Shown: positions 1 through 31,865 of the stretch, one piece after another
How positions within the stretch are numbered: position 1 is the stretch's first letter
Layout: the number at the start of each line of letters is the position of its first letter
Source of the DNA: a virus
Strand: one strand, 5' to 3'
DNA: 31,865 bases
Virus record (IMG/VR): IMGVR_UViG_3300025704_000077
Span: 1 to 31,865 of that record
The notes under the pieces: generated by a model
The model's database searches: none
What the model was told of the DNA's origin: nothing
What the model saw: the letters and a program-made list of their open reading frames with translations, nothing else
Translations under genes and position numbers: made by a program

Positions 1-326
1 GTAGTGCTGATACGATTGATGGGTGACTTCTCGCCCCAATACTTACAGACAATACTTTGAATAAACATTACTTGTCTCTCATTCTTAGTATTAGCCCAGT
101 AGTTCTCATGGCAACGATCAAACGCATAACGTAATGTCCACCCTGATGCCTTACCAGTCTCTCTGTTTACTTCCATAGCTGTAGGCATATTGTCCTGAGC
201 TATGTCTCGCTTCCACATTGCCTCCAGTAGTGAAGCATCTTCCTTAGTGGAGAGAGTTTTCCTGAAGCGTTTGCCTTTATAAGTAACGTAAGCTTCCCAA
301 CCGCTACCTCTTTTAGTTACACTCAT
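1..326 (-). CDS. int: Tyrosine-type integrase, N-terminal part (cut by window edge)
   Basis: The 108 visible codons begin MSVTKRGSGWEAYVTYKGKR, which resembles the N-terminal arm-binding domain of phage tyrosine recombinases (a short beta sheet, G-W-AYVTYKGKR-R-TLSTKEDA), followed by a helical core-binding segment with TLRYAFDR, ANTKNERQ and KYWGEKSPINRI. The catalytic domain lies beyond base 1. Start: ATG at 326, with AGGAGG six bases upstream lying inside the preceding small gene, whose TGA overlaps this ATG. It is the last visible member of a regulator - membrane peptide - integrase chain, the place where int sits in integrative T7-like phages (upstream of the RNA polymerase). It implies a temperate lifestyle; an attP site is probably outside the window. 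The family call rests on the N-terminus only. Confidence 0.8.
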   Translation of the reverse strand, partial: MSVTKRGSGWEAYVTYKGKRFRKTLSTKEDASLLEAMWKRDIAQDNMPTAMEVNRETGKASGWTLRYAFDRCHENYWANTKNERQVMFIQSIVCKYWGEKSPINRIST

Positions 327-412
327 ACTATACCTCCTGTTAAGAATACTGCTACACAACCAATCGCATAACAAGCACCGCAATATAACGCGCCTTCTAC
401 TAAAAAATTCAT
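323..412 (-). CDS. 29-residue membrane peptide coupled to integrase
   Basis: A very short ORF, MNFLVEGALYCGACYAIGCV then AVFLTGGIV, that is almost entirely one hydrophobic helix with three cysteines. It is supported by a strong Shine-Dalgarno (GAGGAGG, eight bases before the ATG) and by ATGA overlaps on both sides: its ATG overlaps the TGA of the winged-helix regulator, and its TGA overlaps the ATG of the integrase. The integrase ribosome-binding site lies inside this gene. I do not recognise a family. It may be a small membrane protein or a leader whose translation sets integrase output. Confidence 0.6.
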   Translation of the reverse strand: MNFLVEGALYCGACYAIGCVAVFLTGGIV

Positions 413-720
413 AGTCTTATCCTCCTCGCTAAGGCTCTGCCTCGCTTTGTTACCTCGATATACTTCTCAATACGTCTATCGGGATTCTCGTATAGTTTTA
501 TTAAGTCGTGATCTACTAGCACTCGTAAGTTTCTACTTGCACTAGCACTGGATGTATCCATGAACTCACCAACATCCATAACTCTCAGCGTTTCTGAATT
601 AACAAAAGTACGTTGAGCGATAATTACAAAAGCATACACTGTCTGTATATGCATCCACGGGTCAATCTTTCTGAACTCCGTTAGTATTCTTATGTGTTCT
701 TTTAAGTCTCGACCAGACAA
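409..720 (-). CDS. MarR-like winged-helix DNA-binding regulator
   Basis: A 103-residue protein with a winged helix-turn-helix pattern: a helix at roughly 20-38 (WMHIQTVYAFVIIAQR), a first HTH helix DVGEFMD, a recognition helix SSASASRNLRVLVDHDLI at about 57-74, and a charged wing YENPDRRIEKYIEVTKRGRA. This is the MarR/phage replisome-organiser style of wHTH. The start is TTG at 720, preceded by GGAGGG; no ATG is as well placed. It opens the three-gene chain ending in int and has its own promoter (perfect TTGACA) about 150 bp upstream, with a nearby palindrome that could be its operator. By position it may control lysogeny or integrase expression; that role is inferred. Confidence 0.7.
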   Translation of the reverse strand: MSGRDLKEHIRILTEFRKIDPWMHIQTVYAFVIIAQRTFVNSETLRVMDVGEFMDTSSASASRNLRVLVDHDLIKLYENPDRRIEKYIEVTKRGRALARRIRL

Positions 721-873
721 TACACCCTCCTAACCAACTGATAAACATATCAGCCTTCTTAATACAAACTCTGGGAATTAACATAAAACCAAATAAGCAT
801 TTCCCCAAAGCTACTTCGTTTCTTAGAAACTTTATTAGCATGGTTTTCCTTTTTGTAAAGATATTACGGAAGC

Positions 874-902
874 GTAGTATTAGTAATGCGTTTTACTGTC
901 AA
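874..902 (-). promoter_or_regulatory. Sigma70-type promoter for the regulator-integrase operon
   Basis: Reading the minus strand there is a perfect -35 TTGACA (plus 897-902), a 17-base spacer, and a weak -10 TACTAC (plus 874-879). It lies in the only gap (721-923) between the early small-gene operon and the regulator gene and points toward the regulator. No clear rho-independent terminator is visible in the gap; a small GTTTC-TTA-GAAAC hairpin is present without a U tract. The weak -10 suggests an activator-dependent or low-level promoter. Confidence 0.5.
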
Positions 903-920
903 CCTTTACTAGTAATAATC

Positions 921-935
921 GATTCAATTTGAATC
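921..935. promoter_or_regulatory. Perfect 15-bp palindrome, candidate operator
   Basis: GATTCAATTTGAATC is a perfect inverted repeat with a one-base centre. It overlaps the stop codon of the 52-residue gene and lies 19 bp upstream of the TTGACA box. Further half-sites (GGATTCAGGATTCAAT) follow at about 955-971 inside the same gene. The arrangement fits a binding site for a dimeric repressor such as the adjacent winged-helix protein, but no binding evidence exists. Confidence 0.4.
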
Positions 936-1082
936 ACCTTTTTTACTTGACTTGGATTCAGGATTCAATTTCTCTGTGGGTAACTTTTTCTTCCCAAAGA
1001 TAGCATCCCAGTTAGACTCGTACTTCTCCTTGTCTACTTTTCGGGGGCGGTCTCCCTTACCCCCATGTGTTGATTCGCTCAT
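924..1082 (-). CDS. Small conserved phage protein (52 aa)
   Basis: MSESTHGGKGDRPRKVDKEK continues YESNWDAIFGKKK with a lysine/serine-rich tail. The pattern HGGKGDRPR-VDKEKYESNWDAIFG is a recurrent small protein of unknown function in tailed phages. It is preceded by AAGGAG close to the ATG and its ATG overlaps the TGA of the gene before it. It is the last gene of the early small-gene operon. The protein is hydrophilic with no signal or membrane segment. Function unknown; the recognition is of a common phage pattern, not of a characterised family. Confidence 0.7.
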   Translation of the reverse strand: MSESTHGGKGDRPRKVDKEKYESNWDAIFGKKKLPTEKLNPESKSSKKGDSN

Positions 1083-1270
1083 ACTCCTTGTTTCTCCATT
1101 TCTTTAATCATAATATCTAGGTAGTCCCTGCCGCCCTCTCGTACTGCTTTCTGTATAGCTTCCTGCTTGGATTTACCTTTGGTATAGACACTATGATCAT
1201 CTGTATACCAATAGGTAAAGTCTTGCTTCCTGCACATATCTTCAAATTCCTTTAGTGTTGGTAGGCTCAT
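1079..1270 (-). CDS. Hypothetical early protein (63 aa)
   Basis: MSLPTLKEFEDMCRKQDFTY continues WYTDDHSVYTKGKSKQEAI, a small alpha/beta protein rich in charged and aromatic residues. I chose the second ATG (1270): AGGAG lies eight bases upstream of it but only two from the ATG at 1276, and the second ATG makes the ATGA overlap with the previous stop that recurs through this operon. No family recognised and no membrane segment. Probably an early host-takeover or accessory protein by position. Confidence 0.65.
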   Translation of the reverse strand: MSLPTLKEFEDMCRKQDFTYWYTDDHSVYTKGKSKQEAIQKAVREGGRDYLDIMIKEMEKQGV

Positions 1271-1551
1271 TGCCATATCTCCTCTAATTCAATACCAAAA
1301 TCATCGTCAAAATCATCACTGTTTTCACGGTCTTTGTAGTGGTAACAGGTTATGTTAAACTTATTATCTAAATCACAACGCCACACATTAACCTCTACAT
1401 CGGTACGCCAGAACATCCAAAAGTCATCTTCTAAAACATCGGAACGCTTCTTTCCAGATAAGCGTATGCCAGAAAAAATACCGCAAACACGCTCATATAT
1501 TGCTCGAACTTCCTCGTTAGTAAGCCAATCTCTATCGCTATGATTTATCAT
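1267..1551 (-). CDS. Hypothetical early protein, paralogue of the preceding gene (94 aa)
   Basis: The core GIFSGIRLSGKKRSDVLEDD at about residues 25-44 matches GIFAGISIAGKTRSDVLGDS in the gene just upstream, and both proteins go on to a beta-rich segment and end in an acidic helix closing LEEIWQ / LEDNWT. This is a tandem duplication followed by strong divergence. The start ATG overlaps the previous TGA, and the gene ends in ATGA with the next. The product is acidic (DDFDDDFGIELEE) and cytosolic. I do not recognise a family; acidic early phage proteins often bind host enzymes, but that is only analogy. Confidence 0.65.
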   Translation of the reverse strand: MINHSDRDWLTNEEVRAIYERVCGIFSGIRLSGKKRSDVLEDDFWMFWRTDVEVNVWRCDLDNKFNITCYHYKDRENSDDFDDDFGIELEEIWQ

Positions 1552-1811
1552 GTCCAGTTATCCTCTAAATTAATTACTTTAATCTCGTTACCATGAAACT
1601 GGCTGTAGTCGTTACACTGGTACGCCACTACTTTCCACTCCTCGTCCTGCTCTTGGTAATAGACAATAACCTCTATTTGACTGTTCCAGTTAAACTTGTA
1701 CTCGCTATCGCCTAAGACATCGCTTCTAGTCTTCCCTGCAATTGAGATACCCGCGAAGATGCCTTGTACAAACTCTCTGATCAAGAGCATCTTTTTTCTG
1801 TTAATCCACAT
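1548..1811 (-). CDS. Hypothetical early protein, paralogue pair member (87 aa)
   Basis: The open frame extends to 1913, but I place the start at ATG 1811 (MWINRKKMLLIREFVQGIFA): GAGGA lies eight bases upstream and the longer version would overlap the upstream gene by over 110 bases. The region GIFAGISIAGKTRSDVLGDS is shared with the next gene, as is the beta-rich middle (QIEVIVYYQEQDEEWKVVAY). It overlaps the upstream stop by 11 bases and the downstream start by 4. Function unknown. Confidence 0.65.
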   Translation of the reverse strand: MWINRKKMLLIREFVQGIFAGISIAGKTRSDVLGDSEYKFNWNSQIEVIVYYQEQDEEWKVVAYQCNDYSQFHGNEIKVINLEDNWT

Positions 1812-1992
1812 CTTTAAATTCCTCGTAGTGTACAATCTCTTCTGTTGGCTCGTGTACAATCTCAAACCCTGCGTAGCCTGTCTCATCGTCATTGAGTCTA
1901 AGTACAATGTCATAGTCGAGAAGCTGTTGGACTACTTTACCATCACTGCCAGTTATTTCTAGTTGCTCGTGTATGTCTTCGAATATATCCAT
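1801..1992 (-). CDS. Hypothetical acidic early protein (63 aa)
   Basis: MDIFEDIHEQLEITGSDGKV and onward: a strongly acidic protein with alternating hydrophobic beta-like stretches (DYDIVLRL, GYAGFEIVHEP) and an EEIVHYEEFKD tail. GAGGTG lies six bases before the ATG. The stop overlaps the next gene, so translation is probably coupled. No membrane segment, cysteine cluster or DNA-binding motif seen. Not recognised. Confidence 0.6.
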   Translation of the reverse strand: MDIFEDIHEQLEITGSDGKVVQQLLDYDIVLRLNDDETGYAGFEIVHEPTEEIVHYEEFKDVD

Positions 1993-2001
1993 GTTACACC
2001 T

Positions 2002-2181
2002 CTATAAGTTAGTTACTAATTGTGTTACACCGCGAGCCTTCTCAGCTTCGAGGTAGTCTAGCCAATGGTAGCTAGGGTCTTGATCGTCATCTTCCATGTC
2101 CCACAACCTTGCGCGTTCCTTGCGAATGGCTGTACTGATTGATTCAAACTGTGCTTCTACTACTGGGTTAGCTGTCAACAT
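2002..2181 (-). CDS. Hypothetical early protein (59 aa)
   Basis: MLTANPVVEAQFESISTAIR then KERARLWDMEDDDQDPSYHW, a hydrophilic helical protein ending GVTQLVTNL. AGGAG is nine bases before the ATG, within the end of the upstream membrane-peptide gene, which overlaps it by 14 bases. The central EDDDQDPS segment is probably a turn between two helices. No known family recognised. Position and ribosome-binding site make it a real gene. Confidence 0.55.
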   Translation of the reverse strand: MLTANPVVEAQFESISTAIRKERARLWDMEDDDQDPSYHWLDYLEAEKARGVTQLVTNL

Positions 2182-2284
2182 GATACTCTACTCCTGTTGG
2201 TGTGGGTGTAGCTAAAAGGTTAATGTTGAATACTCCGACAATTATAACACTAGCTGTCAAGCAAAGTAAAAGTTCTTTTAACAT
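2168..2284 (-). CDS. 38-residue membrane peptide
   Basis: MLKELLLCLTASVIIVGVFN forms one N-terminal hydrophobic helix (about residues 4-25), followed by a short polar tail with PTPTG. GGGAG lies six bases before the ATG. It overlaps the next gene by 14 bases and contains that gene's ribosome-binding site. The helix could be a membrane anchor or an uncleaved signal. It is similar in design to the 29-residue peptide before the integrase, though not in sequence. Function unknown. Confidence 0.5.
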   Translation of the reverse strand: MLKELLLCLTASVIIVGVFNINLLATPTPTGVEYHVDS

Positions 2285-2286
2285 TA

Positions 2287-2418
2287 TTATCTCCCTAACA
2301 AATCAAATAGTAAATTACTGCGTAGTGTGTGTAGGTCTGCCTTGCCGATAGAGTGCAACTCGTGCAACTCTATGCGGAACATTTGGCACAGTCTCATATC
2401 TAATTCTTTATCAAACAT
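2287..2418 (-). CDS. Hypothetical early peptide (43 aa)
   Basis: MFDKELDMRLCQMFRIELHE then LHSIGKADLHTLRSNLLFDL; mostly helical and amphipathic. The open frame runs up to 2496, but the start at 2418 has AAGGAG seven bases upstream and overlaps the previous stop by eight bases, matching operon style; the longer version would overlap the upstream gene by 86 bases. Not recognised. Confidence 0.5.
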   Translation of the reverse strand: MFDKELDMRLCQMFRIELHELHSIGKADLHTLRSNLLFDLLGR

Positions 2419-2683
2419 TAGCTGTCTCCTTGTTATACTCGCGCCAGATGCTAATAAACCCTGCATGGTAGCCTTTCTTACAGTTACCATAGACAACTTC
2501 AGGCTCTCTACGCTTAATGAATCTAGATGCGATAATATACTGTCTGCGCTTAGTCTTAATCCAGTATCGGTTAACGTCTTTATCTTCTACTACGTATGCG
2601 CCTAGTTTCCCCGCTACCGTAGCAATTAAGTTTACGGCTTTTGCACATACCCGTGGTGATGCCTTACTGATTAATTTTAACAT
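2411..2683 (-). CDS. Hypothetical basic early protein (90 aa)
   Basis: MLKLISKASPRVCAKAVNLI followed by a beta-rich basic part (YWIKTKRRQYIIASRFIKRREPEVV). Net positive charge suggests nucleic-acid contact, but there is no recognised fold. GAGGT stands eight bases before the ATG. It lies 12 bases after the stop of the upstream gene and overlaps the next by eight. Function unknown. Confidence 0.6.
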   Translation of the reverse strand: MLKLISKASPRVCAKAVNLIATVAGKLGAYVVEDKDVNRYWIKTKRRQYIIASRFIKRREPEVVYGNCKKGYHAGFISIWREYNKETANV

Positions 2684-2695
2684 TGGTATTACCTC

Positions 2696-3043
2696 TTAGT
2701 TGTTTGAACGTGAAAAATGTTTATTAATTGGATACTTCTTACAGTGCGCGGTATAGTCCTCATCCCACGCGGTACTAACTTCATTGATGCCCCAGTCGCT
2801 GATAATCTCATCAGGCGATTGGTCGTATTCAAGAATGTAACTGAACCCTGCTAAATACTCTACCTCATCTTTTAAGTCTGTAGGGTTGGTTAAGTATATC
2901 ACACCTATATCACAGGCTTCAACTGCTTCCACTGCATCGTCAAAACTAGTCCCTACGTAGTCAGTGTAGCCCTCGCATTCTACCTCGATAATGTAGCCCT
3001 GCTTTAAGCCCCATTTGATTAGGTGTTGATGTGCCTTTTTCAT
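2696..3043 (-). CDS. Hypothetical early protein (115 aa)
   Basis: MKKAHQHLIKWGLKQGYIIE and onward: an N-terminal helix, a central strand-helix-strand unit (VGTSFDDAVEAVEACDIGVIYL), an acidic DEVEYLAGFSYILEYDQSPDEI segment and a basic C-terminus. GGAGGT is placed five bases before the ATG, and the ATG overlaps the previous TGA. It is the largest gene of the small early operon. I do not recognise a characterised family. Confidence 0.65.
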   Translation of the reverse strand: MKKAHQHLIKWGLKQGYIIEVECEGYTDYVGTSFDDAVEAVEACDIGVIYLTNPTDLKDEVEYLAGFSYILEYDQSPDEIISDWGINEVSTAWDEDYTAHCKKYPINKHFSRSNN

Positions 3044-3252
3044 ACCCCACCTCCGATTAGTTTAACGTCATAAAGTTTATCATCTACTAGTTTGTAGAAT
3101 TTAGAATTAGGTAGGTAAACGTGCAGATCGCTACCGTCATCATCCAGTCCGAAAAAGATGCAGTCAAAACCACCCACATCGCATCTGCGAGCCTCAACAG
3201 ACTGTAACACAATCTGCTTATCTCTGATTTGTTTCTGGCTTACATATGGCAT
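3040..3252 (-). CDS. Hypothetical early protein (70 aa), first gene of the early operon
   Basis: The frame is open to 3273, but I choose ATG 3252 (MPYVSQKQIRDKQIVLQSVE) because GGAGG sits four bases upstream of it and the earlier ATG has no ribosome-binding site. The product is beta-rich (GFDCIFFGLDDDGSDLHVYL) and ends VKLIGGGV. It follows a promoter-like sequence at 3382-3410 by about 130 bases of leader, and it heads a run of overlapping genes reaching 924. Not recognised. Confidence 0.6.
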   Translation of the reverse strand: MPYVSQKQIRDKQIVLQSVEARRCDVGGFDCIFFGLDDDGSDLHVYLPNSKFYKLVDDKLYDVKLIGGGV

Positions 3253-3362
3253 ACTGCCTCCGTTGGTGTTCATTGATTTAGTGATGCTATGGTCTCACAT
3301 CCTGACCCTGCTGTCTACCCCTGCTCCTACCCATTCACCGCAGAAAATGCCCCTCTTACCTC

Positions 3363-3422
3363 AAGCGTCAAAACTAACCTCAAAATACTATCATGGTTTT
3401 TAAGCGTCAAAATACTATCATG
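3363..3422 (-). repeat. Interleaved direct repeats in the early-operon leader
   Basis: On the minus strand two copies of CATGATAGTATTTTGA, 28 bp apart, are interleaved with three TTTTGA-(C/G)G-(C)TT units, two of them identical (TTTTGACGCTT). On the plus strand these are tcaaaatactatcatg (3380-3395 and 3408-3423) and aagcgtcaaaa (3364-3374 and 3403-3413). They cover the candidate promoter, so they may be regulator sites, although iteron-like replication sites or a simple local duplication are also possible. Confidence 0.6.
3382..3410 (-). promoter_or_regulatory. Sigma70-type promoter for the early small-gene operon
   Basis: Minus strand: -35 TTGACG (plus 3405-3410), 17-base spacer, -10 TATTTT (plus 3382-3387). 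It lies within the direct repeats and just downstream, in the sense of transcription, of Fur-like boxes. Transcription would run into the 70-residue gene and the rest of the operon to about 924. A host-type promoter here fits the early region of a T7-like phage. Confidence 0.45.
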
Positions 3423-3426
3423 TTGT

Positions 3427-3441
3427 TGCGAATGATTCTCA
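3427..3441. promoter_or_regulatory. Fur-box-like site (11 of 14)
   Basis: TGCGAATGATTCTCA matches the 7-1-7 Fur consensus TGATAATNATTATCA at 11 of 14 positions. It is 16 bases upstream of the -35 of the early-operon promoter. It is the weakest of the Fur-like sites and is listed because of the stronger sites around it. Confidence 0.4.
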
Positions 3442-3477
3442 TTAACATCTGGCGTAGTGGTGCTTACCAAATGCAAA

Positions 3478-3498
3478 TGAGAATCGTTATCATTATCA
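3478..3498. promoter_or_regulatory. Two overlapping Fur-box-like sites
   Basis: The stretch TGAGAATCGTTATCA (3478-3492, 12 of 14) and the copy shifted six bases, TCGTTATCATTATCA (3484-3498, 11 of 14), form the staggered double 7-1-7 arrangement typical of Fur operators. It lies just after the GP88-like gene and upstream of the early-operon promoter. Binding is inferred from the motif. Confidence 0.6.
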
Positions 3499-3505
3499 TT
3501 TAGGT

Positions 3506-4369
3506 TTAGGCTGATATAAGTTTGGTTAGTTTGGCTAGATTAGACTGGTTAAAAAAGAACCCGTTCTTGGTTTCATCTTGGGCGCGTTCTAGCTTGTTCG
3601 ATCCTTTGCGCTTTAATACACCAACACTGCCTGCAGGATCTAAGAACCGAGCATCCGTATCATCCATATTGATTAAGGGTATCAGGTCAAGCTTCTCAGG
3701 CATTTTATATTCACCCTTGGTTTCAGCAGTGTTAACTGCTAGAACCGTCTTAAAACCGCCTTTAATAGCTCGAGCGGTCATTGTCATTGTTTTATCATTG
3801 TTCGCGCTACCGCTAAATGTGAGATCGTAATTCTTGAGAGTATTCTTTTTAACGCGACTAAAAACCTTGGTGTAATCGTAGAACCTAATAGACGGAAAAT
3901 AAGATATAAAATTATTAAAATCAATATCGGTCGTGCCGTTTAAACGCACCGCTAACGTATCGCCATGGTTGGCATCATGTACGCATATTTCACCGCGTAA
4001 AACTTTAAAGAACCTATCGCGCTCTAATAGATAGCATAGCGTGCGTTTGGTTACCGCCTTTTGTGCCTGAGTCATTCCCAATTGACCGCTTGAAATTAAA
4101 CAATCAGACTTGCACCCAAATAAATCAGCCCCAGCGCATAGCGTTTGACTCGCTACTTTATCAGCGGGTTGCATGTATAAAATAGCGGTGTTGATATTAA
4201 TCTTTTTACCTTTAGATGTTTTGGTGCTACTGTTAACGTTAACTAATGGCGTATTAACTTGCGTTAAATAATCCCAGTTTTTAATTGCCCATGTTTTAAC
4301 AGATGGATTAATTGCGTCACTTGCTAGAAGTGTTTTTTTAGATACTTGTAGTTTCATAATGTGCACCAT
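3506..4369 (-). CDS. GP88-like phage protein with cysteine cluster
   Basis: A 287-residue protein with features of the phage 'gene product 88' family: a cysteine cluster CAGADLFGCKSDC (Cys78, Cys86, Cys90), a following helical part (QAQKAVTKRTLCYLLERDRF), an acidic/polar RLNGTTDIDFNNF stretch and FPSIRFYDYTKVFSR at about 158-172, equivalent to the fYaYTK motif of that family. The biochemical role is unknown; the spaced cysteines suggest metal or Fe-S binding (inference). Two candidate starts, ATG 4369 and ATG 4357 (MKLQVSKK), both lack a Shine-Dalgarno, unlike neighbouring genes. It is preceded by a terminator-like hairpin and followed by Fur-like operators, so it may have its own transcription unit. 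The family call comes from motif memory and is moderate. Confidence 0.6.
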   Translation of the reverse strand: MVHIMKLQVSKKTLLASDAINPSVKTWAIKNWDYLTQVNTPLVNVNSSTKTSKGKKININTAILYMQPADKVASQTLCAGADLFGCKSDCLISSGQLGMTQAQKAVTKRTLCYLLERDRFFKVLRGEICVHDANHGDTLAVRLNGTTDIDFNNFISYFPSIRFYDYTKVFSRVKKNTLKNYDLTFSGSANNDKTMTMTARAIKGGFKTVLAVNTAETKGEYKMPEKLDLIPLINMDDTDARFLDPAGSVGVLKRKGSNKLERAQDETKNGFFFNQSNLAKLTKLISA

Positions 4370-4395
4370 ATTGGTTTAGTTAATTAATATAATAG

Positions 4396-4419
4396 AACCC
4401 GCTATTGCTAACGGGCTCG
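4396..4419 (-). terminator. Terminator-like hairpin
   Basis: On the minus strand GAGCCCG pairs with CGGGTTC (one G.T pair) around a 10-base loop, followed by TATTATATTAATTAA. It is placed just after the 62-residue gene and before the GP88-like gene. The T tract is interrupted, so termination may be partial. Confidence 0.4.
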
Positions 4420-4424
4420 ATATA

Positions 4425-4613
4425 TTAACTACGATCAAAGCATAGGTATTCAAGCAATTCATCTAGGGCTATTTGCGTTTGGTCGTGTTCATCGTCCATA
4501 TTCATATTGCTATAGTGTTGCAAGTCCGCCACCAGTGCTTGAGTTAATCGGAATAGATCGTCCCCATCATGCTCCGCTAGATCAAAAGTGTTAATGCCAA
4601 TATGTAATTTCAT
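4425..4613 (-). CDS. Hypothetical acidic protein (62 aa)
   Basis: MKLHIGINTFDLAEHDGDDL then FRLTQALVADLQHYSNMNMD: one short N-terminal strand, then two amphipathic helices with a very acidic linker (DDEHDQTQIALDELLEYL). AGGTGA lies four bases before the ATG. It is between the 78-residue gene and the GP88-like gene, followed by a hairpin. Not recognised. Its acidity suggests a protein-binding role, but nothing more can be said. Confidence 0.55.
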   Translation of the reverse strand: MKLHIGINTFDLAEHDGDDLFRLTQALVADLQHYSNMNMDDEHDQTQIALDELLEYLCFDRS

Positions 4614-4620
4614 AAGTCAC

Positions 4621-4680
4621 CTATAAAGTAGTTTAATTAGTTTAATGGATACCACTGTTTCCAATGGCATCTATAAAGTA
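4621..4680 (-). repeat. Hairpin with GAAA loop bracketed by a 10-bp direct repeat
   Basis: The plus-strand sequence ctataaagta occurs at 4621-4630 and again at 4671-4680. Between them, on the minus strand, ATGCCATTG-GAAA-CAGTGGTAT (4649-4670) forms a nine-pair stem, two pairs being G.U, closed by a GNRA-type tetraloop. No U tract follows, so it looks like an RNA processing or stability element, or a regulator site, rather than a terminator. Confidence 0.4.
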
Positions 4681-4685
4681 ACTAT

Positions 4686-4924
4686 TTATTTATTTAGCTC
4701 CCGCTCCGCTTGCCAAACCATAGTTTTTAATTCTTTAATTTCAAAATATTCAGCCATATAACCATTCAATTTTAAATCATCATCAGCAGTCCATTCATCA
4801 ATGAGGGCTCTCTTACAAGCTTTCTGAGTTTCGACTGATGATTCTAATGCACGCGATCTAGTAGATAGTGCTAGGCTTATTTGGAGAAGTTGGTCGCTGT
4901 CAAGTTTTAGATTTGAAGTAGTCA
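4686..4924 (-). CDS. Hypothetical helical protein (78 aa)
   Basis: MTTSNLKLDSDQLLQISLAL and onward, almost wholly helical with heptad-like leucines (ELKTMVWQAERELNK at the end). The frame is open to 5078, but the N-terminal extension would translate straight through a Fur-like box and has no ribosome-binding site, whereas ATG 4924 has AAGG ten bases upstream. It is the first gene after the junction region and has a Fur-like box 28 bases before its start. A weak ribosome-binding site leaves the start uncertain. Not recognised. Confidence 0.5.
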
Positions 4925-4951
4925 TAATATGTAGCCTTTTAGTTATGTAAA

Positions 4952-4966
4952 TGATAATGATTCGCA
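4952..4966. promoter_or_regulatory. Fur-box-like site upstream of the 78-aa gene
   Basis: TGATAATGATTCGCA matches TGATAATNATTATCA at 12 of 14 positions and lies 28 bases before the ATG of the first junction gene, a normal position for a Fur operator. I could not find a convincing -35/-10 pair beside it. Confidence 0.55.
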
Positions 4967-5265
4967 TTTGCGATTGGGTAGCCTCTTTGCTTTCCCATGA
5001 TTGGAGTATACTAAATAACGCACATAAATAGTATAGGCAGAGCTTATTGATCGTGACCACCTCCGCTGATTTGGTCATATTAGGTGATTTTAGCGTGATT
5101 TTAAAATTACAAAATGGCTTGTAGTAGGTCTAGTTTGCCGCGTGTTGAACGATCTTTTTATGAATAGCGTGGTATGGCTTTCTAGTAATGGCGTTAGGCG
5201 TACATTATGCACCCTTAGCGTTGATTTGTCATAATCAAAAAAACAGATAAAGAGAGACAGAAACA

Positions 5266-5320
5266 CTGTATGAATAACCAGTAGATACTGTATGAATGTA
5301 CAGCCTGTATGGATATACAG
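5266..5320. promoter_or_regulatory. Three tandem LexA (SOS) boxes
   Basis: Three copies of CTG-N10-CAG: CTGTATGAATAACCAG (5266-5281), CTGTATGAATGTACAG (5288-5303) and CTGTATGGATATACAG (5305-5320). With flanks the second reads TACTGTATGAATGTACAGCC, close to the gammaproteobacterial consensus. Start-to-start spacing is 22 and 17 bp. The nearest downstream gene leftward starts at 4924; rightward there is no plus-strand gene. Several boxes in a row are usual in tightly repressed SOS promoters such as those of colicins. Confidence 0.75.
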
Positions 5321-5410
5321 TAGTAGAGCTGCAAACAGTGGTTTTTATATCCTCTGTAATATCAGCGGCAGAGCGGCTAGATTCTATTCCGTGGCGTAGG
5401 TTGTGGCAAA

Positions 5411-5425
5411 TGATAATGATTCTCA
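5411..5425. promoter_or_regulatory. Fur box, strong match
   Basis: TGATAATGATTCTCA matches the 7-1-7 Fur consensus at 13 of 14 positions. An identical 15-mer lies 34 bp further right. It stands about 90 bp right of the LexA boxes. Confidence 0.65.
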
Positions 5426-5444
5426 TTTACAAACCCGTGATAGA

Positions 5445-5459
5445 TGATAATGATTCTCA
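5445..5459. promoter_or_regulatory. Fur box, strong match (second copy)
   Basis: The same 15-mer, TGATAATGATTCTCA, 13 of 14 to the Fur consensus. The centre-to-centre spacing of 34 bp from the first copy is about three helical turns, so dimers at the two sites could lie on roughly the same face of DNA. Confidence 0.65.
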
Positions 5460-5528
5460 TTCGCATCCATACGGGGGTAACGCCACCGCCCCACATACGA
5501 TATACCACCTCAGATTTTTGTAACAAAA

Positions 5529-5584
5529 TTAAGACCCCTTAGACAAAGGTAGCGAAGCCCAGTTAAAGTGCTAAGAGGTCTTAA
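5529..5584. repeat. 14-bp inverted repeat near the genome-end region
   Basis: TTAAGACCCCTTAG (5529-5542) is the inverse of CTAAGAGGTCTTAA (5571-5584) with one mismatch; the arms are 28 bases apart. It could be a bidirectional terminator, a terminase recognition or cutting site, or a recombination site. There is no T tract directly after either arm. Confidence 0.5.
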
Positions 5585-5680
5585 TATATCAATAAGGAGG
5601 GGCTGGTGGGGGGTATCCCTAAACCAGTGTTAAAGTATCCTACATTACCTGTACTTATACCCTAGGTAATATTCATCACT

Positions 5681-5709
5681 CTTTAACATCCTTAAACATT
5701 CCTAAACAT
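5681..5709 (+). repeat. Short AAACAT repeats
   Basis: CTTTAACAT, CCTTAAACATT and CCTAAACATA follow one another with a period of about 10 bp. In T7, arrays of short CCTAAAG-type repeats flank the terminal redundancy, so a comparable role at the genome end is possible. A related array in the opposite orientation lies upstream of the capsid gene. Confidence 0.4.
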
Positions 5710-5763
5710 ACTTCTATATACTATAGGTATGTAAAGGGGGGGAGGGGGTCTGTATTCCTATAA

Positions 5764-5787
5764 GGGGCATGACCTTTTAAACCCAGT
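5764..5787 (-). promoter_or_regulatory. Conserved element, copy 1 (after last late gene)
   Basis: The minus strand reads ACTGGGTTTA then AAAGGTCATGCCCC, shared almost exactly with a copy at 29962-29984 at the start of the structural block. It begins at the stop codon of the last late gene. Occurrence at the head of the late genes and at the right end parallels T7 late and right-end promoters, so a phage RNA-polymerase promoter is possible. Confidence 0.4.
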
Positions 5788-6143
5788 CATAGCAAGGGAT
5801 TCTCACTTAGCTTTTTAAGGCTTCCTTTAATGCTTTTAACTTGTTCTTTAAGGACAACCAGCTCTTTTTCAATACCGCTTGTGCTTGGGATACTAAGGCT
5901 GCCAACTTTCTCATCCAAGTTATTAATCCTGCCACGCAGTTGTTCAATTTCTTTTCCAATTTTTCCAATGTCATTATCTTCTACCCTTGTTTCTAGTTTA
6001 ACTAAACGTGACTCTAACGCTGTAGAGTCTACATTTGCTTCCAGTGTTGCCACCTTCTCTTGTAATGTTCCGTATCCAATGGCAGCACCAGCGATTGTAC
6101 TAGCTAGTCCTACCCATACGGAGAATGTTTTAACGTCCATCAT
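5787..6143 (-). CDS. Membrane-anchored coiled-coil protein (118 aa)
   Basis: A hydrophobic N-terminal helix (VWVGLASTIAGAAIGYGTL, residues 9-27) is followed by a long heptad-patterned coiled coil (LQEKVATLEANV, LVKLETRVED, IEQLRGRINNLDEKVGSL) and a second helical block ending LKKLSENPLL. The shape, N-terminal anchor plus coiled coil, fits an inner-membrane spanin or another envelope protein, but there is no partner lipoprotein in the expected overlapping position. The ATG overlaps the previous TGA and two ATGs are in tandem. It is the last late gene. Function is inferred from architecture only. Confidence 0.6.
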   Translation of the reverse strand: MMDVKTFSVWVGLASTIAGAAIGYGTLQEKVATLEANVDSTALESRLVKLETRVEDNDIGKIGKEIEQLRGRINNLDEKVGSLSIPSTSGIEKELVVLKEQVKSIKGSLKKLSENPLL

Positions 6144-6931
6144 CTTAGCATCATCTCCAAGTTAGGGATTTGTGCATAATAGTCCTGCATATCACCTTCA
6201 ACAGTCATACTATACTCGTCCCAAGCTACGTTAAGGGCTGTAGGGTTGAGTTCATCAATTGTTATAGTCACTGTATCAAAGAATGCTTGAGTTGTTTGAG
6301 TGTCTATTACAAGTTGAGCTATGGTATCAACTATCTGTATGTCTTGTGAGTAGGCTTCAATCATATTCTTTGTCATGGAAGCTTCAAGCATAGAATCAAT
6401 ACTAGTGTTATACTGCTCTACATCATCTTGCTTAATCTCAACTAAGTCATTTGTAACTGCATACTCTTGTGCGTTTATCACTTGTTCCTGATTACCAGTG
6501 GCTATTATCTCTGCTACCTCTGTCACCTGTGCTATATCGCTTGCTGCTTCGATTAGGGACTCTTTAGCAACCTCATAGTCATACTGCTTGTCTTCTATTA
6601 AACTGTCTAAGGCTACAGCTGTGACAGCCTCTGGGGTACTATTAACTAATCCCTCAGTATAGAATGTATTAAAAGCATTTATTTGGTATTGCTTAAGCTT
6701 GTACTGGTCTCCTGTATATTGATTAAAGATAACAGTGTTGCCTTTCTCCATAGACTCTTGAGTCATTTGAGTAAACTCTGACAAGCCTTTATCGATAGTG
6801 TTATCAATGTCGTTTATACTTTCCTGTAATGAGCTTGGGATGTACAGACCGCCCGCTCTTGCTTCGTTTGATAACAGGAGCATCAGGCACAGTATCAGGG
6901 TGTTCTTTATAATATTTAGTTGCTTTATCAC
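6140..6931 (-). CDS. Secreted or virion-associated helical protein, unknown (263 aa)
   Basis: It starts with GTG at 6931, preceded by AGGAGG at eight bases, and opens with a typical Sec signal peptide: IKQLNIIKN, a hydrophobic core TLILCLMLLL, and a likely cleavage after SNEARA. The mature part (GGLYIPSSLQESINDIDNTI and onward) is acidic, helical and without cysteines. Its first 128 bases overlap the upstream gene in another frame, so the signal peptide is encoded inside that gene's C-terminus. It is followed with ATGA coupling by the coiled-coil protein. I do not recognise a family; export plus position suggests lysis or envelope function. Confidence 0.65.
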   Translation of the reverse strand: MIKQLNIIKNTLILCLMLLLSNEARAGGLYIPSSLQESINDIDNTIDKGLSEFTQMTQESMEKGNTVIFNQYTGDQYKLKQYQINAFNTFYTEGLVNSTPEAVTAVALDSLIEDKQYDYEVAKESLIEAASDIAQVTEVAEIIATGNQEQVINAQEYAVTNDLVEIKQDDVEQYNTSIDSMLEASMTKNMIEAYSQDIQIVDTIAQLVIDTQTTQAFFDTVTITIDELNPTALNVAWDEYSMTVEGDMQDYYAQIPNLEMMLR

Positions 6932-7343
6932 CGATCAGTCCTCCTATCGGGCATGGGGTTTTTGCGTTTAACATCGCATGAAATACTCTAGGGTCATTAC
7001 ATAGTACACTGGTAGCAGCAACTTTTAAGCCGAGGTGTTCTAACTGTCTAGATAGCTTAAGCAGCTCACAGGTTTCATCTCTTGTAGAAGAACCGTAAGA
7101 TAAGCCTATCTGTAAAGTCTGAACCCCTCTCCCATTCGATACAACACAAATATCTTGGTTGTAAACTGGGGCAGCTGCGCCTACTGCTGTGGGTACGGGT
7201 GTACCTTCTTGACTGACAATAGAGGTCGTTGTTGTGGTAATAGTCTCTGCTTGTGTGTTGTTACTAAAGTCACCCTGCTCTGCATCATTAGCCATCACAG
7301 GGGAGCTTAAGAACACAAACATTATTAGTTTTTTTAAATCCAT
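6804..7343 (-). CDS. Secreted protein of unknown function (179 aa)
   Basis: MDLKKLIMFVFLSSPVMAND looks like a Sec signal peptide with cleavage after VMA. It continues with a Thr-rich linker (ETITTTTTSIVSQ), then a cysteine-containing domain: ICVVSNGRGVQTLQIGLSYG, TCELLKLSRQLEHLGLKVAA, and cysteines in SVLCNDPRVF and KTPCPIGG, which in the periplasm could form disulfides. The C-terminus is basic (KSGRSVHPKLITGKYKRH). Its ATG overlaps the end of large terminase by 10 bases. The last 128 bases also encode the signal peptide of the next gene. A similar position after the terminase is common for small virion-associated or lysis proteins; not recognised. Confidence 0.65.
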   Translation of the reverse strand: MDLKKLIMFVFLSSPVMANDAEQGDFSNNTQAETITTTTTSIVSQEGTPVPTAVGAAAPVYNQDICVVSNGRGVQTLQIGLSYGSSTRDETCELLKLSRQLEHLGLKVAATSVLCNDPRVFHAMLNAKTPCPIGGLIGDKATKYYKEHPDTVPDAPVIKRSKSGRSVHPKLITGKYKRH

Positions 7344-9004
7344 GTGTTAGCTCTTTGGGGTGAATTAACATTATAGCCGTTAACAAACTTATCTATCTCG
7401 TCCATCAATAGCTTATTCTTTCTTTCTTGCATTTCTCCTTCTACATCAGCAGCCATCTGTTCTACCCAATAGGCTACACCCATCGCTAGTGCATCCAATC
7501 TATCGTCATGCGCTAGTGATCCCCTATCCTTCGTTATACGAGTCATCTGGTACGTTAACATATACCTCTGAGCCTTCTCAGGCGGATGGTGTTGAACGCT
7601 GTCAAAGTCCTTTTGGATAACTTTAGGATCGAATATGAGCTTGTGTTGATTCATTACAGGCTCTAGTGTGTCTATTATACGTAGTTCTTTCTGCTTACTG
7701 TGTCGTACTTCCTCAGTAGTAACTGGATATATCTTTTTCAAGAAAGGTTTCAGTAGTTCTGTAAACATACCGTCACCAAAGTTACTTTCCACCAGTACAG
7801 CGTTTACTTTATGTTCCTTCGCTATGTTACATAACTTCGTTAGCGTAGTTTCATCGTAACCGCCTTGAATACCTGAACAGTCTGAGACGTACAAGTAGCC
7901 GTTTAACATCTTAACAACAGCATAAGCTGTTTCATCTTGACCTCTACCAGATGGATCAATCACTAATACCGAACCATCGTACTCTATGTAGTCTCCTAGA
8001 ATCGCTTCTGGGGCGTAGTACTTGTCACCCGCCAGTCCTACATTAGGTAGGTCACTAACAGGCTTCATAACGCCATACACGAGCTTCTCGGGTGCTTTAT
8101 CGTTGTCTATCGACATCACCATAAGATCATTAAGCTTCAATGGGTATCTATCCATGTCTGCTAGACTTGTGTCTAACATAAACTGCAATGCAAAACCTGA
8201 ACGTCCGTAAGATAGTTCACGTTCCATTAAGTCCTCATCATCAAATCGCAGAGGATCTACGGGATTGCCGTCTAAGGGACTTTCTGCATTGTGCATAGCA
8301 TCCCAAAGGGTAGGTGCTAAACGTGCGCCATACGACTTCTCAGCCTTCTCTATGGACGGGTATCTAGCAGTCCAGACTCTCATCTGATAACCACGTTCTG
8401 TGAGTGTGTTATATAGACTCATCTCACACTGTGGTGTACCAAGATAAAGAATCTTACCCTCTGGTTTTAGTACCGCATCAAATTCTTTAACAGCTTCACC
8501 TAATTTCTCGCGCATCATTTGCGTCATAGAATTGTTAGGTACTTCGATGTCATCTGCGATAATGATGTCTGCCCGACTGCCCGTTAGCTGTCCAGTAATC
8601 CCGACAGATTTAACTGACGGACTACCAGACGCTAAAGCGGGTCTTACATCAAACGCGATCTTACTCCACCTTTGCTCACTTGTTGCTATGAGATGTTGGC
8701 ATATTGGGAGTTCTAAGATCAGACGTTGTGTGAATGTGGAAAAATCGTCAGCTCTTTGTTTTGATGCTGACACTACCATGAACTTCTTTTGTGGATCGAG
8801 AAGTAATTGGTGTACCACGAATGCTGCTGTAATGTATGACTTACCTACACCACGGAATGCTTCAATGATTGCTCTACGAGGACAGTTCTGAATGTACTCT
8901 GCCATATCGTATTGAACTGGAGTTGGATCAGGCAAGTTGAGATGCTTCCACACTATATACATAAAGTTACGGAAGTCTTTTAGTTGCTCTGGCATCTTTT
9001 CCAT
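7334..9004 (-). CDS. Terminase large subunit (T7 gp19-like, DNA maturase B)
   Basis: The packaging motor ATPase and nuclease that pumps and cuts concatemeric DNA. Visible motifs: Walker A AFRGVGKS at 49-56 (Lys55), Walker B IIIADDIE at 147-154, the coupling motif LYLGTPQ at 186-192, the nuclease aspartate in VLVIDPSGRG (Asp350), a probable second acidic site AVLVESNFGDG (about 402-412) and the C-terminal HDDRLDALA at 499-507. At 556 residues it is close to T7 gp19. AAGGA lies six bases before the ATG. It follows the small basic protein, HNH protein and small terminase, and overlaps the next gene by 10 bases. Confidence 0.95.
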   Translation of the reverse strand: MEKMPEQLKDFRNFMYIVWKHLNLPDPTPVQYDMAEYIQNCPRRAIIEAFRGVGKSYITAAFVVHQLLLDPQKKFMVVSASKQRADDFSTFTQRLILELPICQHLIATSEQRWSKIAFDVRPALASGSPSVKSVGITGQLTGSRADIIIADDIEVPNNSMTQMMREKLGEAVKEFDAVLKPEGKILYLGTPQCEMSLYNTLTERGYQMRVWTARYPSIEKAEKSYGARLAPTLWDAMHNAESPLDGNPVDPLRFDDEDLMERELSYGRSGFALQFMLDTSLADMDRYPLKLNDLMVMSIDNDKAPEKLVYGVMKPVSDLPNVGLAGDKYYAPEAILGDYIEYDGSVLVIDPSGRGQDETAYAVVKMLNGYLYVSDCSGIQGGYDETTLTKLCNIAKEHKVNAVLVESNFGDGMFTELLKPFLKKIYPVTTEEVRHSKQKELRIIDTLEPVMNQHKLIFDPKVIQKDFDSVQHHPPEKAQRYMLTYQMTRITKDRGSLAHDDRLDALAMGVAYWVEQMAADVEGEMQERKNKLLMDEIDKFVNGYNVNSPQRANTWI

Positions 9005-9006
9005 TA

Positions 9007-9138
9007 TTAATCCTTCTTCTTGAAACCTATCTTAAGTTTAGCGTAAGCTTTAGGAGAGATGGTTGATTTCTTTTTAGATCGACTAATGCCTTTCTTTTTT
9101 CTTGCGTTAATATTTGCGTATAAACCTTTACTAGCCAT
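9007..9138 (-). CDS. Small basic conserved phage protein (43 aa)
   Basis: MASKGLYANINARKKKGISR then SKKKSTISPKAYAKLKIGF and a KKKD end. The motif KGLYANIN-RKK recurs in small proteins of unknown function encoded beside terminase genes in many phages. The protein is extremely basic, so DNA or RNA contact is likely. It overlaps the end of the HNH gene by eight bases, its AGGAG lying inside that gene, and ends two bases before the terminase start. Confidence 0.7.
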   Translation of the reverse strand: MASKGLYANINARKKKGISRSKKKSTISPKAYAKLKIGFKKKD

Positions 9139-9352
9139 TTCTGCTCCTGTTCTTTTTCTTACTTTGTATTCTTAAGTTACTTGTAGATTTGTTTTGCGGG
9201 TTTCTGTCTTTATGGTCTACGTCCTTACCAGCGACAGCCGCAGCACCTCTCTTCTTGATCATTAACGACCTCGATGTGTTACGCGCTGCTCTTCTTTTCT
9301 TTTGTTTATCGCTGCTATGGTAATTAGCGTATTCTTTCTTATAGTTTCTCAA
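9131..9352 (-). CDS. HNH-type endonuclease (73 aa)
   Basis: A small basic protein with the C-terminal HNH signature DVDHKDRNPQNKSTSNLRI (about residues 45-63): His47 of the DH pair and the Asn of SNLR are in the usual spacing, and an N-terminal YKKEYANYHSSDKQKKRRAA helix precedes it. The start is TTG at 9352, with GAGGAG eight bases upstream; its TTGA overlaps the stop of the small terminase gene. HNH proteins beside terminase genes have been shown in other phages to assist terminase cleavage; here the role is inferred. There are no zinc cysteines, so it is a minimal HNH. Confidence 0.75.
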   Translation of the reverse strand: MRNYKKEYANYHSSDKQKKRRAARNTSRSLMIKKRGAAAVAGKDVDHKDRNPQNKSTSNLRIQSKKKNRSRNG

Positions 9353-9555
9353 TGGGACATCTCCTCAAAGGGTAATGCCTCCAGTAAGTTAGCCATAGGA
9401 GACTCTGATGTTACAACCTCGTGAACAGCTCCGTTATCTTTTAGGAACTTAGTCGCTACTGACAATTCTGATGCAGATGCTTCACCTGATTTAACTTTCT
9501 GTAACAAGTCTTTAGCTACACTGTCGTGCAGTTCGTCTAATATTTTAGTATCCAT
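9349..9555 (-). CDS. Terminase small subunit (T7 gp18-like, DNA maturase A)
   Basis: A 68-residue helical protein: LHDSVAKDLLQKVKSGEASA then SELSVATKFLKDNGAVHEVV. The -LL-KVKSGEASASELSVA-KFLKDNG- pattern is typical of small terminase subunits of T7-like marine phages, in which it forms the DNA-recognition component of the packaging complex. It is short compared with T7 gp18 (89 aa). It lies between the holin and the HNH gene, as in T7 where holin, small terminase, spanin and large terminase are clustered. Confidence 0.75.
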   Translation of the reverse strand: MDTKILDELHDSVAKDLLQKVKSGEASASELSVATKFLKDNGAVHEVVTSESPMANLLEALPFEEMSH

Positions 9556-9558
9556 AAT

Positions 9559-9951
9559 TTATCCTTTCATAACCTTTGCAATCTTCTCACCACTACGTCC
9601 TACGACATAGCCGCCTAAGCCAAGCTGTAGTAACGCCCAAGCTTCATCACGAAGGGGCGTAGCAAATAACCCGAAGGTATCGCCTACAGCGAGTGCAAGA
9701 AAGGTTAACATTGTTATTGGTCTCCATGCTGCAACGATGAAGTGTTCGCTTTGAGCTTCTGCTGCAACAATCTTTTGCTGCCCCTCAATACGAGAGGTTT
9801 CGTAGTCAAATACACGCTGCATAGCGGAAGCTTGGACATCGAGTAGATGCCCTTTTGCTTTCAATCGTTCATCATCACTAGTGTGTAGTTTGTCCACTAA
9901 CTCTGCGGCTGGTTTAAAGATACCAGCAATCAAGTCTGTTACACCTAACAT
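9559..9951 (-). CDS. Holin of the 3TM type
   Basis: A 130-residue protein with an amphipathic N-terminus (GVTDLIAGIFKPAAELVDKL), a charged helical middle and two or three hydrophobic helices: FIVAAWRPITMLTFLALAV at about 71-89, GLFATPLRDEAWALLQLGLG at about 94-113, then GGYVVGRSGEKIAKVM. The GRSGEK ending is typical of 3TM holins, which form the inner-membrane lesion that triggers lysis. The N-terminal helix may be the third membrane element. AGGAG is properly spaced before the ATG. Its place next to the small terminase agrees with T7 (gene 17.5 holin). Confidence 0.75.
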   Translation of the reverse strand: MLGVTDLIAGIFKPAAELVDKLHTSDDERLKAKGHLLDVQASAMQRVFDYETSRIEGQQKIVAAEAQSEHFIVAAWRPITMLTFLALAVGDTFGLFATPLRDEAWALLQLGLGGYVVGRSGEKIAKVMKG

Positions 9952-30059: not shown

Positions 30060-31865
30060 CTATATTTCGCATGAACCTGACGAGCAAGCCAACTCCTGAG
30101 TTCCAGTAGTGGTGTCCTCTTTTTCATAGTCTCCAAGCCTGTCCCAATCAATCTCTGATGGGGTCTCTCGTTTCAGTTCCATATACTTGTCCTTATCTAT
30201 AGCTTCATAAGGAGCTTGAGCATACACATGGTCAGTACGGGGTAGGAAGCTAATGCCAGAACAACTGTCTAAGCGTTCCCATAACCATTGCCCTGCCGCA
30301 AGGAACTCATCATCAGAGTAGTAGATGGTTACACTAGGTTTATGTTCACACCAGTGCTCCTGATATATCTCCCACAAATCTAACTGCTGTTGTACATTAA
30401 GTTCGTTCACACAGGTTGCACCCTTTGGTGCTTGTACAGGGAAGTCAAACACATAGTTCTCTGTGTTCATTACATCCTTCTCCCACGACACGCCCGCATC
30501 TTTTAGGAATGCAGAGATAGGGTCTTTCCCATCGCTTCGTACTCGTCTTATATAATAAGGAGAGAACCTAGCATGAATACCACTAGCACTGTCTACTAAT
30601 TGAGACACTGTGCCTGACGGCTTCACACACGTAATGGCTGTTGATTGGTTAACACCTAACTCAGCCGCGAACGCTTTGTTGGTTTGTACCGCAATCTTCT
30701 TCAGCTTCTCTAGTGTATCCTTTAGTGTAACTAAGCTACCCTTACCTGATAACAACTTGTGATCCATGATGCCTGTCATACTTACACCAAGCAAACATTC
30801 TTCTTCTGTGTTCTTCTTCCAGACAGAACGTACATACCTAAAGTCAGTTAGTGTTGACTGTAGTGTCCCCAGTATCGCAGCTAGTCGAGTCTTACGCTCT
30901 AGTGATTCTTGTGTATCATCAGCACGTACTACAATCTCAGACAAGTTACACACCTGTGCCGAGCGTAGGACAATCTCACTACAAGGGTTTGTGCCAAAGT
31001 CGTGGTCTATATCTCTACGTCCATTTCTCGCTGCTTGTTTCTTTGCAGCAGTTCGGGAGAAGATGCCACGCTCTCCAGCCTTAGACTTATAGAGTGCTAA
31101 CCATTCTTCCAAAAAGGTTTCATACTCAGGCTTCTCTTCGTACACGGCACTGTTGTTTGCCAAGGCTCTTTGTGTTTGCGTTTCCCACCAATTCCCAGAC
31201 TTCGCATGACGCATACGATCATCAGACAAGTTAGATAGAGAGATGAGAGCAGACCTACGCACACCACCAACAACAACAATCTCAGCAACCTTACAAACAA
31301 TGTCATGACATTCAATACTCGTTAGCTTACGTCCAGCAGCGTTCTTGAAAGTAGCAACAGTAAAGTCGAACAGCCTAACCAAAGGATCAGCCCCGCTCGA
31401 TCTGCCACCAAACGTCTTAAGCCGTGCACCTTTAGCCCGTAACTTAGAGACATCCCAAGTAGGCACTTGACCCGAATACAAAAGACTAACCAACTCACGG
31501 AAAGCTTTAGCCCAACCAATCTTACTGTCTGCAACATGGATTGTAGTTTCTGTTTCATAAAAGTCCTCACTTATGGTTGGTAGTTTAGCAACAGACTGTC
31601 TCTCTACGGAGAACCCTACGCCTGTGCCACACATTAATACATATAATATCTCATCAAATACTCTGGGGTTATCAACTGCTATGTAACTACAGTTAAACCC
31701 TGCCATGTTATCTCGCTTAAGTGCGTCACCCGCTGTCATAAGACAACGCATGGATGGCATAATCTCTTGCCTGTGTATTGCACTAAACAATTCCTTAGCA
31801 AGTTTATCGTCTATCTGTCCACGCTCTAACCAGAAGTCGATGTACCGCTGTACAGTTTCTTTCCA
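30060..31865 (-). CDS. nrdJ: Class II (adenosylcobalamin-dependent) ribonucleotide reductase, 5' end cut
   Basis: The frame is open to the window edge (601 visible residues), so the N-terminus is missing. It closely follows the monomeric RTPR type: IMPSMRCLMTAGDALKRDNM, AGFNCSYIAVDNPRVFDEIL, MCGTGVGFSVERQSVAKLP, NPCSEIVLRSAQVCNLSEIV and KPSGTVSQLVDSASGIHARF. The first active-site cysteine is in NCSY, the radical-bearing cysteine in NPCSE, its redox partner in QVCNLS, and a C-terminal thiol pair in ACSSGSCEI. It makes dNTPs without oxygen or a separate radical subunit, needing host cobalamin, and supplies DNA synthesis. Placement between replication and structural genes is common in marine podoviruses. 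Confidence 0.95.
   Translation of the reverse strand, partial: WKETVQRYIDFWLERGQIDDKLAKELFSAIHRQEIMPSMRCLMTAGDALKRDNMAGFNCSYIAVDNPRVFDEILYVLMCGTGVGFSVERQSVAKLPTISEDFYETETTIHVADSKIGWAKAFRELVSLLYSGQVPTWDVSKLRAKGARLKTFGGRSSGADPLVRLFDFTVATFKNAAGRKLTSIECHDIVCKVAEIVVVGGVRRSALISLSNLSDDRMRHAKSGNWWETQTQRALANNSAVYEEKPEYETFLEEWLALYKSKAGERGIFSRTAAKKQAARNGRRDIDHDFGTNPCSEIVLRSAQVCNLSEIVVRADDTQESLERKTRLAAILGTLQSTLTDFRYVRSVWKKNTEEECLLGVSMTGIMDHKLLSGKGSLVTLKDTLEKLKKIAVQTNKAFAAELGVNQSTAITCVKPSGTVSQLVDSASGIHARFSPYYIRRVRSDGKDPISAFLKDAGVSWEKDVMNTENYVFDFPVQAPKGATCVNELNVQQQLDLWEIYQEHWCEHKPSVTIYYSDDEFLAAGQWLWERLDSCSGISFLPRTDHVYAQAPYEAIDKDKYMELKRETPSEIDWDRLGDYEKEDTTTGTQELACSSGSCEI

Follow-up and report, generated by a model that had tools for sequence, protein, structure and literature searches.

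In CTXphi, 186 (tum), N15 (antC), and GIL01, phage genes are controlled by host LexA through a box that overlaps one defined promoter and serves prophage induction. Tandem LexA boxes are combined with Fur control in a single control region in the colicin operons. Two further kinds of phage are close to the locus described here. The first is the group of T7-like Autographiviridae with temperate features (LUZ100, and HTVC019P and Pasto, which integrate), in which int lies in one operon with a MarR-like regulator (PMC10134795). The second is phage T5 (Tequintavirus), for whose injection stop signal an interaction with components of the host has been suggested (PMC13250531).

How does the present locus compare? 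With the LexA-controlled phages it would share host LexA as a regulator of phage genes, but it has several boxes, placed in a predicted terminal repeat and accompanied by Fur boxes. The same pairing of tandem LexA boxes with Fur is found in the colicin operons, which differ in that they are plasmid toxin genes with no phage end. Like the temperate-featured T7-like phages, this lineage has a T7-type terminase and RNA polymerase, a MarR-like regulator directly upstream of the integrase, an int gene near the RNA polymerase gene, a tRNA attP (in relatives of the DNA analyzed), and a predicted direct terminal repeat of similar size; LUZ100 differs in that its end regions, where examined, have no LexA or Fur sites. 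T5 likewise has a near-perfect LexA box and Fur boxes in a noncoding part of the first-entering terminal repeat, but T5 is unrelated and lytic, and its 10.2-kb repeat also has DnaA boxes and another arrangement.

The window, the whole stretch of 31,865 nucleotides that we analyzed (IMGVR_UViG_3300025704_000077, positions 1 to 31,865), is a fragment of a marine autographivirus. A previous sequence-only reading of this DNA had called it a T7-like phage with an integrase and had envisaged prophage exit without a classical cI repressor. The first of these claims is borne out by the terminase (PF22530), by a T7-type head-tail connector in the window (PF12236), and by a T7-type single-subunit RNA polymerase that lies outside the window and is found in G004 and G007, its closest longer relatives, which are near-identical to it. 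The integrase claim holds for the lineage, since the gene is complete in G004 and G007, but the window itself has only an N-terminal fragment of it. No cI-like repressor was seen in the window, only the MarR-like regulator. The gene order in G004 and G007 is early genes, MarR-like regulator, integrase, attP, and RNA polymerase. The attP is the first 38 nt (5′ half) of a tRNA-Phe gene (about 29,500-29,860 in L130/G004 and about 4,060-4,420 in L131/G007), and because it lies between int and the polymerase gene, integration would part that gene from the early control region. Matches to the tRNA-Phe half-site were found in gammaproteobacterial genomes, one of them exact over the 36 nt searched, which points to a gammaproteobacterial type of host without naming it. 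A genome search with the terminase for a host gave only distant matches, and LexA boxes stood beside lexA-family genes in only some of the genomes from the host search. Toward the other edge of the window, which cuts it, is a class II (B12-dependent) ribonucleotide reductase gene (30060-31865).

Table 1. Genes, predicted operators, and genome-end signals of the window
Feature	Position	Strand	Remarks
Tyrosine integrase, N-terminal fragment, 123 aa	3..371	-	Truncated at window edge; full length in G004 and G007
MarR-like winged-helix regulator, 103 aa	409..720	-	
Fur box	3476..3494	.	1 mismatch; between GP88-type gene and next leftward genes; kept in G004 and G007
GP88-family gene	3506..4369	-	PF17338, phrog_1617
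First leftward gene, 79 aa	4686..4925	-	No family match
Fur box	4950..4968	-	1 mismatch; about 25 bp upstream of first leftward gene; same place in L050 and L047
Promoter-like ATGACA-N17-CATAAT	5204..5232	-	Just downstream of predicted repeat, early-gene side; consensus match only
ATCTGTT, then TTTTT	5242..5248	-	Class II phage-RNA-polymerase pause/terminator sequence, as at T7 concatemer junction
Predicted direct terminal repeat	5249..5502	-	About 254 bp, ends ± about 15 bp; homology to T7, CHF19, LUZ100, and CRP-227 record ends
LexA box 3	5266..5281	-	TACTGGTTATTCATACAGTG
LexA box 2	5288..5303	-	GGCTGTACATTCATACAGTA; 1-bp gap to box 1
LexA box 1 (gene orientation)	5305..5320	-	TACTGTATATCCATACAGGC; 4 mismatches to 20-bp consensus; kept in relatives
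Promoter-like TTGCCA-N17-TAGAAT	5381..5409	-	Within predicted repeat, with Fur boxes on one side and LexA boxes on the other; L051 has TATAAT; consensus match only
Fur box	5409..5427	-	Exact match to AATGANAATNATTNTCATT
Fur box	5443..5461	-	1 mismatch
Genome-end motif	5498..5519	-	AAAAATCTGAGGTGGTATATCG; near-constant in clade; matches T7 right-end junction
Stem-loop with T-tract, likely terminator	5524..5585	-	Late-operon end; kept in relatives
Large terminase, T7-type	7334..9004	-	PF22530; query for relatives

Three CTG-N10-CAG sites had been reported at 5266-5320, two of them spaced by one base, and all three are present. The bare pattern is not enriched in the window (11 occurrences versus 7.8 expected from shuffling), and its count was dropped as evidence. 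Scoring against the 20-bp LexA consensus, with a cutoff of ≤6 mismatches, returned exactly three sites in the window, the same three boxes, compared to 0.16 per shuffled window. Read on the gene strand (minus), they have the CTGT...ACAG-like half-sites and the AT-rich center of the gammaproteobacterial LexA (SOS) operator. The LexA-type identity first suggested for the boxes is thus upheld by their score, and we regard them as genuine-looking sites, with predicted binding, for the bacterial DNA-damage repressor. The weight of this assignment rests on the consensus-scored sites, their clustering, and their conservation rather than on the bare count. The target had been left unclear, with an untranslated RNA as one option and the first leftward gene starting at 4924. 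The start is an ATG at 4925. Positions 1-7000 gave no Rfam match, no conserved plus-strand gene was noticed here in the relatives examined, and the RNA was set aside; the target is better described as the minus-strand early region from 4925 downward.

Accompanying the LexA boxes, and overlooked in the sequence-only reading, are strong predicted boxes for the iron repressor Fur. The Fur consensus AATGANAATNATTNTCATT, which is palindromic about its central base, is matched exactly at one window site and with 1 mismatch at three others.

Relatives were gathered with the GP88-type protein (13 loci) and with the terminase (80 loci). The three-box array recurs about 2.0 kb past the terminase in L044, L045, L047, L050, and L007/L052; its position and spacing are shared by L003/L047, L004/L045, L050, and L007/L052 and partly by L053 and L062. 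The motif is conserved in close relatives. In the recurring arrays the 1-bp spacing is retained and both half-sites persist while the box centers differ. The same region of more distant relatives also has LexA-type boxes, namely, L053 (2 and 3 mismatches), L062 (four), L069 (three), L064, L093, L098, and L120; the near-consensus members, with 2 mismatches, are in L053, L093, and L098. Across 24 distinct boxes in relatives, a set selected on CTG/CAG, the center is variable, but positions 6 (T) and 15 (A) hardly change, a constancy that goes beyond the selection. A set of 38 dereplicated regions downstream of the terminase, 79.5 kb in all, yielded 18 matches to the LexA motif, whereas 150 palindromic permutations of equal composition averaged 0.36 and never exceeded 5; for the Fur motif there were 27 matches, compared with an average of 0.13 and a maximum of 3 among its permutations. 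The regions were picked by similarity to the window's terminase, so that they come from related lineages, and an array inherited from a common ancestor is counted more than once.

Sites were found in 21 of 56 control regions of relatives (LexA in 15, Fur in 16, both in 10). The remaining 35 have neither, which indicates that the array is dispensable in the clade. Counted from the predicted left end, site starts fall mostly at 33-49, 69-77, and 150-260. L053 has LexA at 41 and Fur at 77, and L062 has the inverse, with Fur at 38 and LexA at 72. This interchange of predicted operators at the same slots argues against mere inheritance of the array and is the strongest sign that position matters more than which repressor binds. 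A palindrome survey of the relatives without LexA or Fur sites gave candidate operators only. Other repeated elements were seen in the same collection. In L093 and L098 (G001), the stretch that precedes the early genes has several copies of the perfect palindrome CCGAACCGTTCGG, each upstream of a promoter or gene; TTCCTCGGACATTCCGAGAC has three copies in the L104 control region, downstream of the genome-end motif; and the direct repeat TTGGCATGCTAATTGC has two copies within the predicted terminal repeat of the L094 control region. Apart from these, L017 (IMGVR_UViG_2767802164_000003), a contig with an integrase, shows at 9098-9615 a LexA box that departs from the consensus at one base, along with a tandem pair.

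Where do the boxes lie relative to the genome end? In T7, AAAAATCTGAGTGACTA immediately precedes the 160-bp terminal repeat, and the repeat ends as ...GTGTCCCT^ATCTGTT (...CCCT^ATCTGTT). The window counterpart of this end is ...CTCTCTTT followed by ATCTGTTTTTTT from 5248 downward. ATCTGTT(TT) is the class II phage-RNA-polymerase terminator sequence and is present also at the phage concatemer junction (PMC11617373). The annotated 216-bp repeat of CHF19 ends three bases before ATCTGT, the annotated 244-bp repeat of LUZ100 starts shortly after a similar AAAAATGCGAGACGGTATA and has TTCCCCCC near its start, and the CRP-227 record opens at the genome-end motif. Compared with these four phages, the window has AAAAATCTGAG before the boundary, a TTCCCCC-type block near the start, and ATCTGTT just after the end, and on the basis of this likeness we predict the repeat listed in Table 1. 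Its position and ends are called by homology, the window and its relatives being metagenome contigs. The predicted repeat contains the three LexA boxes and two of the Fur boxes (5409-5427 and 5443-5461) ahead of the early genes, and these operators thus appear to sit within the part of the genome expected to enter the cell first.

The array is positioned between the late-operon terminator and the early genes. The stem-loop of that likely terminator was recognized by reading the sequence and was not among the output of a simple terminator scan. The candidate promoter TTGCCA-N17-TAGAAT adjoins the Fur box with the exact match and is followed by the LexA boxes. The region has 12 promoter-like sites, not clearly above the 8.7 (SD, 3.7) of shuffles; the matches near the boxes are modest, and their conservation does not span the whole clade. 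Another candidate, P1 (TTGACA-N17-TATA), which runs across the genome-end motif, was rejected, as its −35 part is not conserved and it would be absent from the linear left end. In L093 and L098, the LexA box is directly downstream of TTGACC-N17-TATCAT and outside the predicted repeat.

A DNA search of 2690-7400 against isolate phages gave no match. The search of the window region against INPHARED returned 216 isolate records, and among the 20 matches listed the alignment was only over the Fur pair. Four of the 216 records were inspected (L201-L204), and these have Fur-box arrays in noncoding stretches of T5-like and Stephanstirmvirinae phages. Th1 and vB_Kpn_3, both T5-like, combine Fur arrays with a LexA box that has one mismatch, whereas the arrays of EC.P2 and tuntematon consist of Fur boxes and are not joined by a LexA box. 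In T5 itself (AY543070, L207), LexA sites with ≤5 mismatches are at 6213 and 9411, and Fur sites with ≤2 mismatches are at 231, 9552, 9656, and 9691; all of these, as well as their right-repeat copies, fall within the terminal repeat as annotated. The LexA site at 9411 and the Fur sites at 9552, 9656, and 9691 belong to the annotated injection stop signal, beside DnaA boxes. For one repeat copy plus the unique part, the 2 LexA (≤4 mismatches) and 4 Fur sites compare with 0.025 and 0.125, respectively, in a simple shuffle of dinucleotide blocks. No sites were found in the first 1 to 1.5 kb of the records of T7, LUZ100, CHF19, LUZ19, CRP-227, PP2, Mysterion, M83, and PspYZU08, some of which may not start at the physical end. 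In the literature searched, we found no report of Fur boxes in phage genomes, of LexA and Fur boxes in connection with prophages, or of SOS boxes in temperate T7-like phages, although prior notice of the T5 sites is possible.

The sites are conserved, keep to a few slots in which LexA and Fur can replace each other, and occur even where a relative has no integrase. One potential explanation is that they are host-state operators acting on the first-entering end and on early transcription. We prefer this explanation tentatively and give it slightly less than an even chance. The three boxes would be operators for the host LexA repressor within a mixed LexA/Fur array that spans the terminal repeat and the early control region. 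From entry of the left end onward, as well as in an integrated form, should there be one, the array would be occupied by host LexA and iron-loaded Fur, which would repress rightward early transcription or act as a roadblock to it. Either DNA damage, through LexA cleavage, or iron starvation would lift the hold, and the early genes, including those for the MarR-like regulator and the integrase, would then be transcribed. The phage would in this way read host stress via the host's own repressors and would not be tied to lysogeny alone. Binding by LexA and Fur, repression, and the promoter affected are predicted steps of this scheme. Early promoters are not usually found in a terminal repeat, and the location of most sites within the predicted one counts against the scheme, as do the modest promoter matches and the 35 control regions that have neither kind of site; the sites outside it, by promoters or genes (Fur at 4950-4968 and the LexA boxes of L093/L098), favor a control role, and the gammaproteobacterial type of host suggested by the attP also speaks for the scheme.

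Could the boxes instead be a switch for prophage exit? As proposed in the sequence-only reading, LexA alone would repress an early promoter in the lysogen, and its cleavage after DNA damage would free int. The integrase and attP of the closest relatives would fit such a switch, as would the location of that attP, where integration separates the early control region from the polymerase, and the lack of a visible cI-like gene. However, LexA boxes are not restricted to integrase-bearing members. G001, a 42,156-bp contig whose ends overlap by 77 bp and which is therefore probably complete, lacks a tyrosine integrase, yet its LexA boxes are in the corresponding place. Together with the pairing of LexA and Fur sites in the terminal repeat of lytic T5, this argues that the sites are not simply a prophage-exit switch, and the claim is not supported as it was stated. 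Also against it, the same slots are occupied by Fur sites, a T7-like cyanophage integrates without stable lysogeny (PMC8776855), and LUZ100 co-transcribes its MarR-like regulator with int, SOS being unmentioned in PMC10134795. We consider this switch unlikely. A role for the sites as look-alikes, bound by a phage-encoded or unrelated host regulator and merely resembling LexA and Fur boxes, seems very improbable. The MarR-like regulator is a candidate binder, but two independent, well-defined consensuses are matched by near-consensus members (2 mismatches for LexA, exact for Fur), and both kinds of site occur in T5, whose host is Escherichia coli.

Two other explanations were considered. Host LexA and Fur on the first-entering repeat might halt the incoming end, tether it, or shield it, or they might have a role at the concatemer junction in packaging. 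Such docking would suit the placement of all three LexA boxes and two Fur boxes in the predicted repeat, by the class II pause sequence ATCTGTT, the interchangeability of LexA and Fur by slot, and the LexA, Fur, and DnaA sites of the T5 injection stop signal, for which interaction with host components has been proposed (PMC13250531). We nonetheless find it rather doubtful: operators also occur outside the repeat, by genes (4950-4968, 3476-3494, and L093/L098), most autographiviruses examined are without such sites, and the two families could have gained them for different reasons. Alternatively, replicating genomes could serve as decoys that titrate LexA and Fur and so switch on host repair or iron uptake for the benefit of the phage. 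Each predicted repeat would supply five sites, a linear genome would have two such repeats, and an infected cell would contain many genomes; similar arrays are found in T5-like phages, as are Fur arrays in Stephanstirmvirinae phages. Yet few sites are present at the start of infection, titration has no need of fixed slot positions, and the benefit would be limited by degradation of host DNA, which is common in T7-like phages. Decoys therefore seem quite improbable to us.

Returning to host-state operators, the comparison with T5 suggests a broader form of the idea. Two unrelated lineages, marine T7-like and T5-like, each appear to put host LexA and Fur operators in the first-entering repeat, and the DNA-damage and iron state of the host may act directly on the end that comes in, as a gate on early transcription or on DNA entry in temperate and nontemperate phages alike; we would place this possibility somewhat below an even chance. 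Control of phages by LexA is already known as a prophage induction switch at one promoter. If our proposal is true, interchangeable LexA and Fur operators in fixed slots near the genome end, with or without an integrase and also in T5, would mean that host stress is sensed at the start of infection via host repressors. The host components proposed to interact with the T5 injection stop signal are poorly understood, and LexA and Fur would become named candidates. T5 in laboratory E. coli makes the idea of host-stress sensing testable now.
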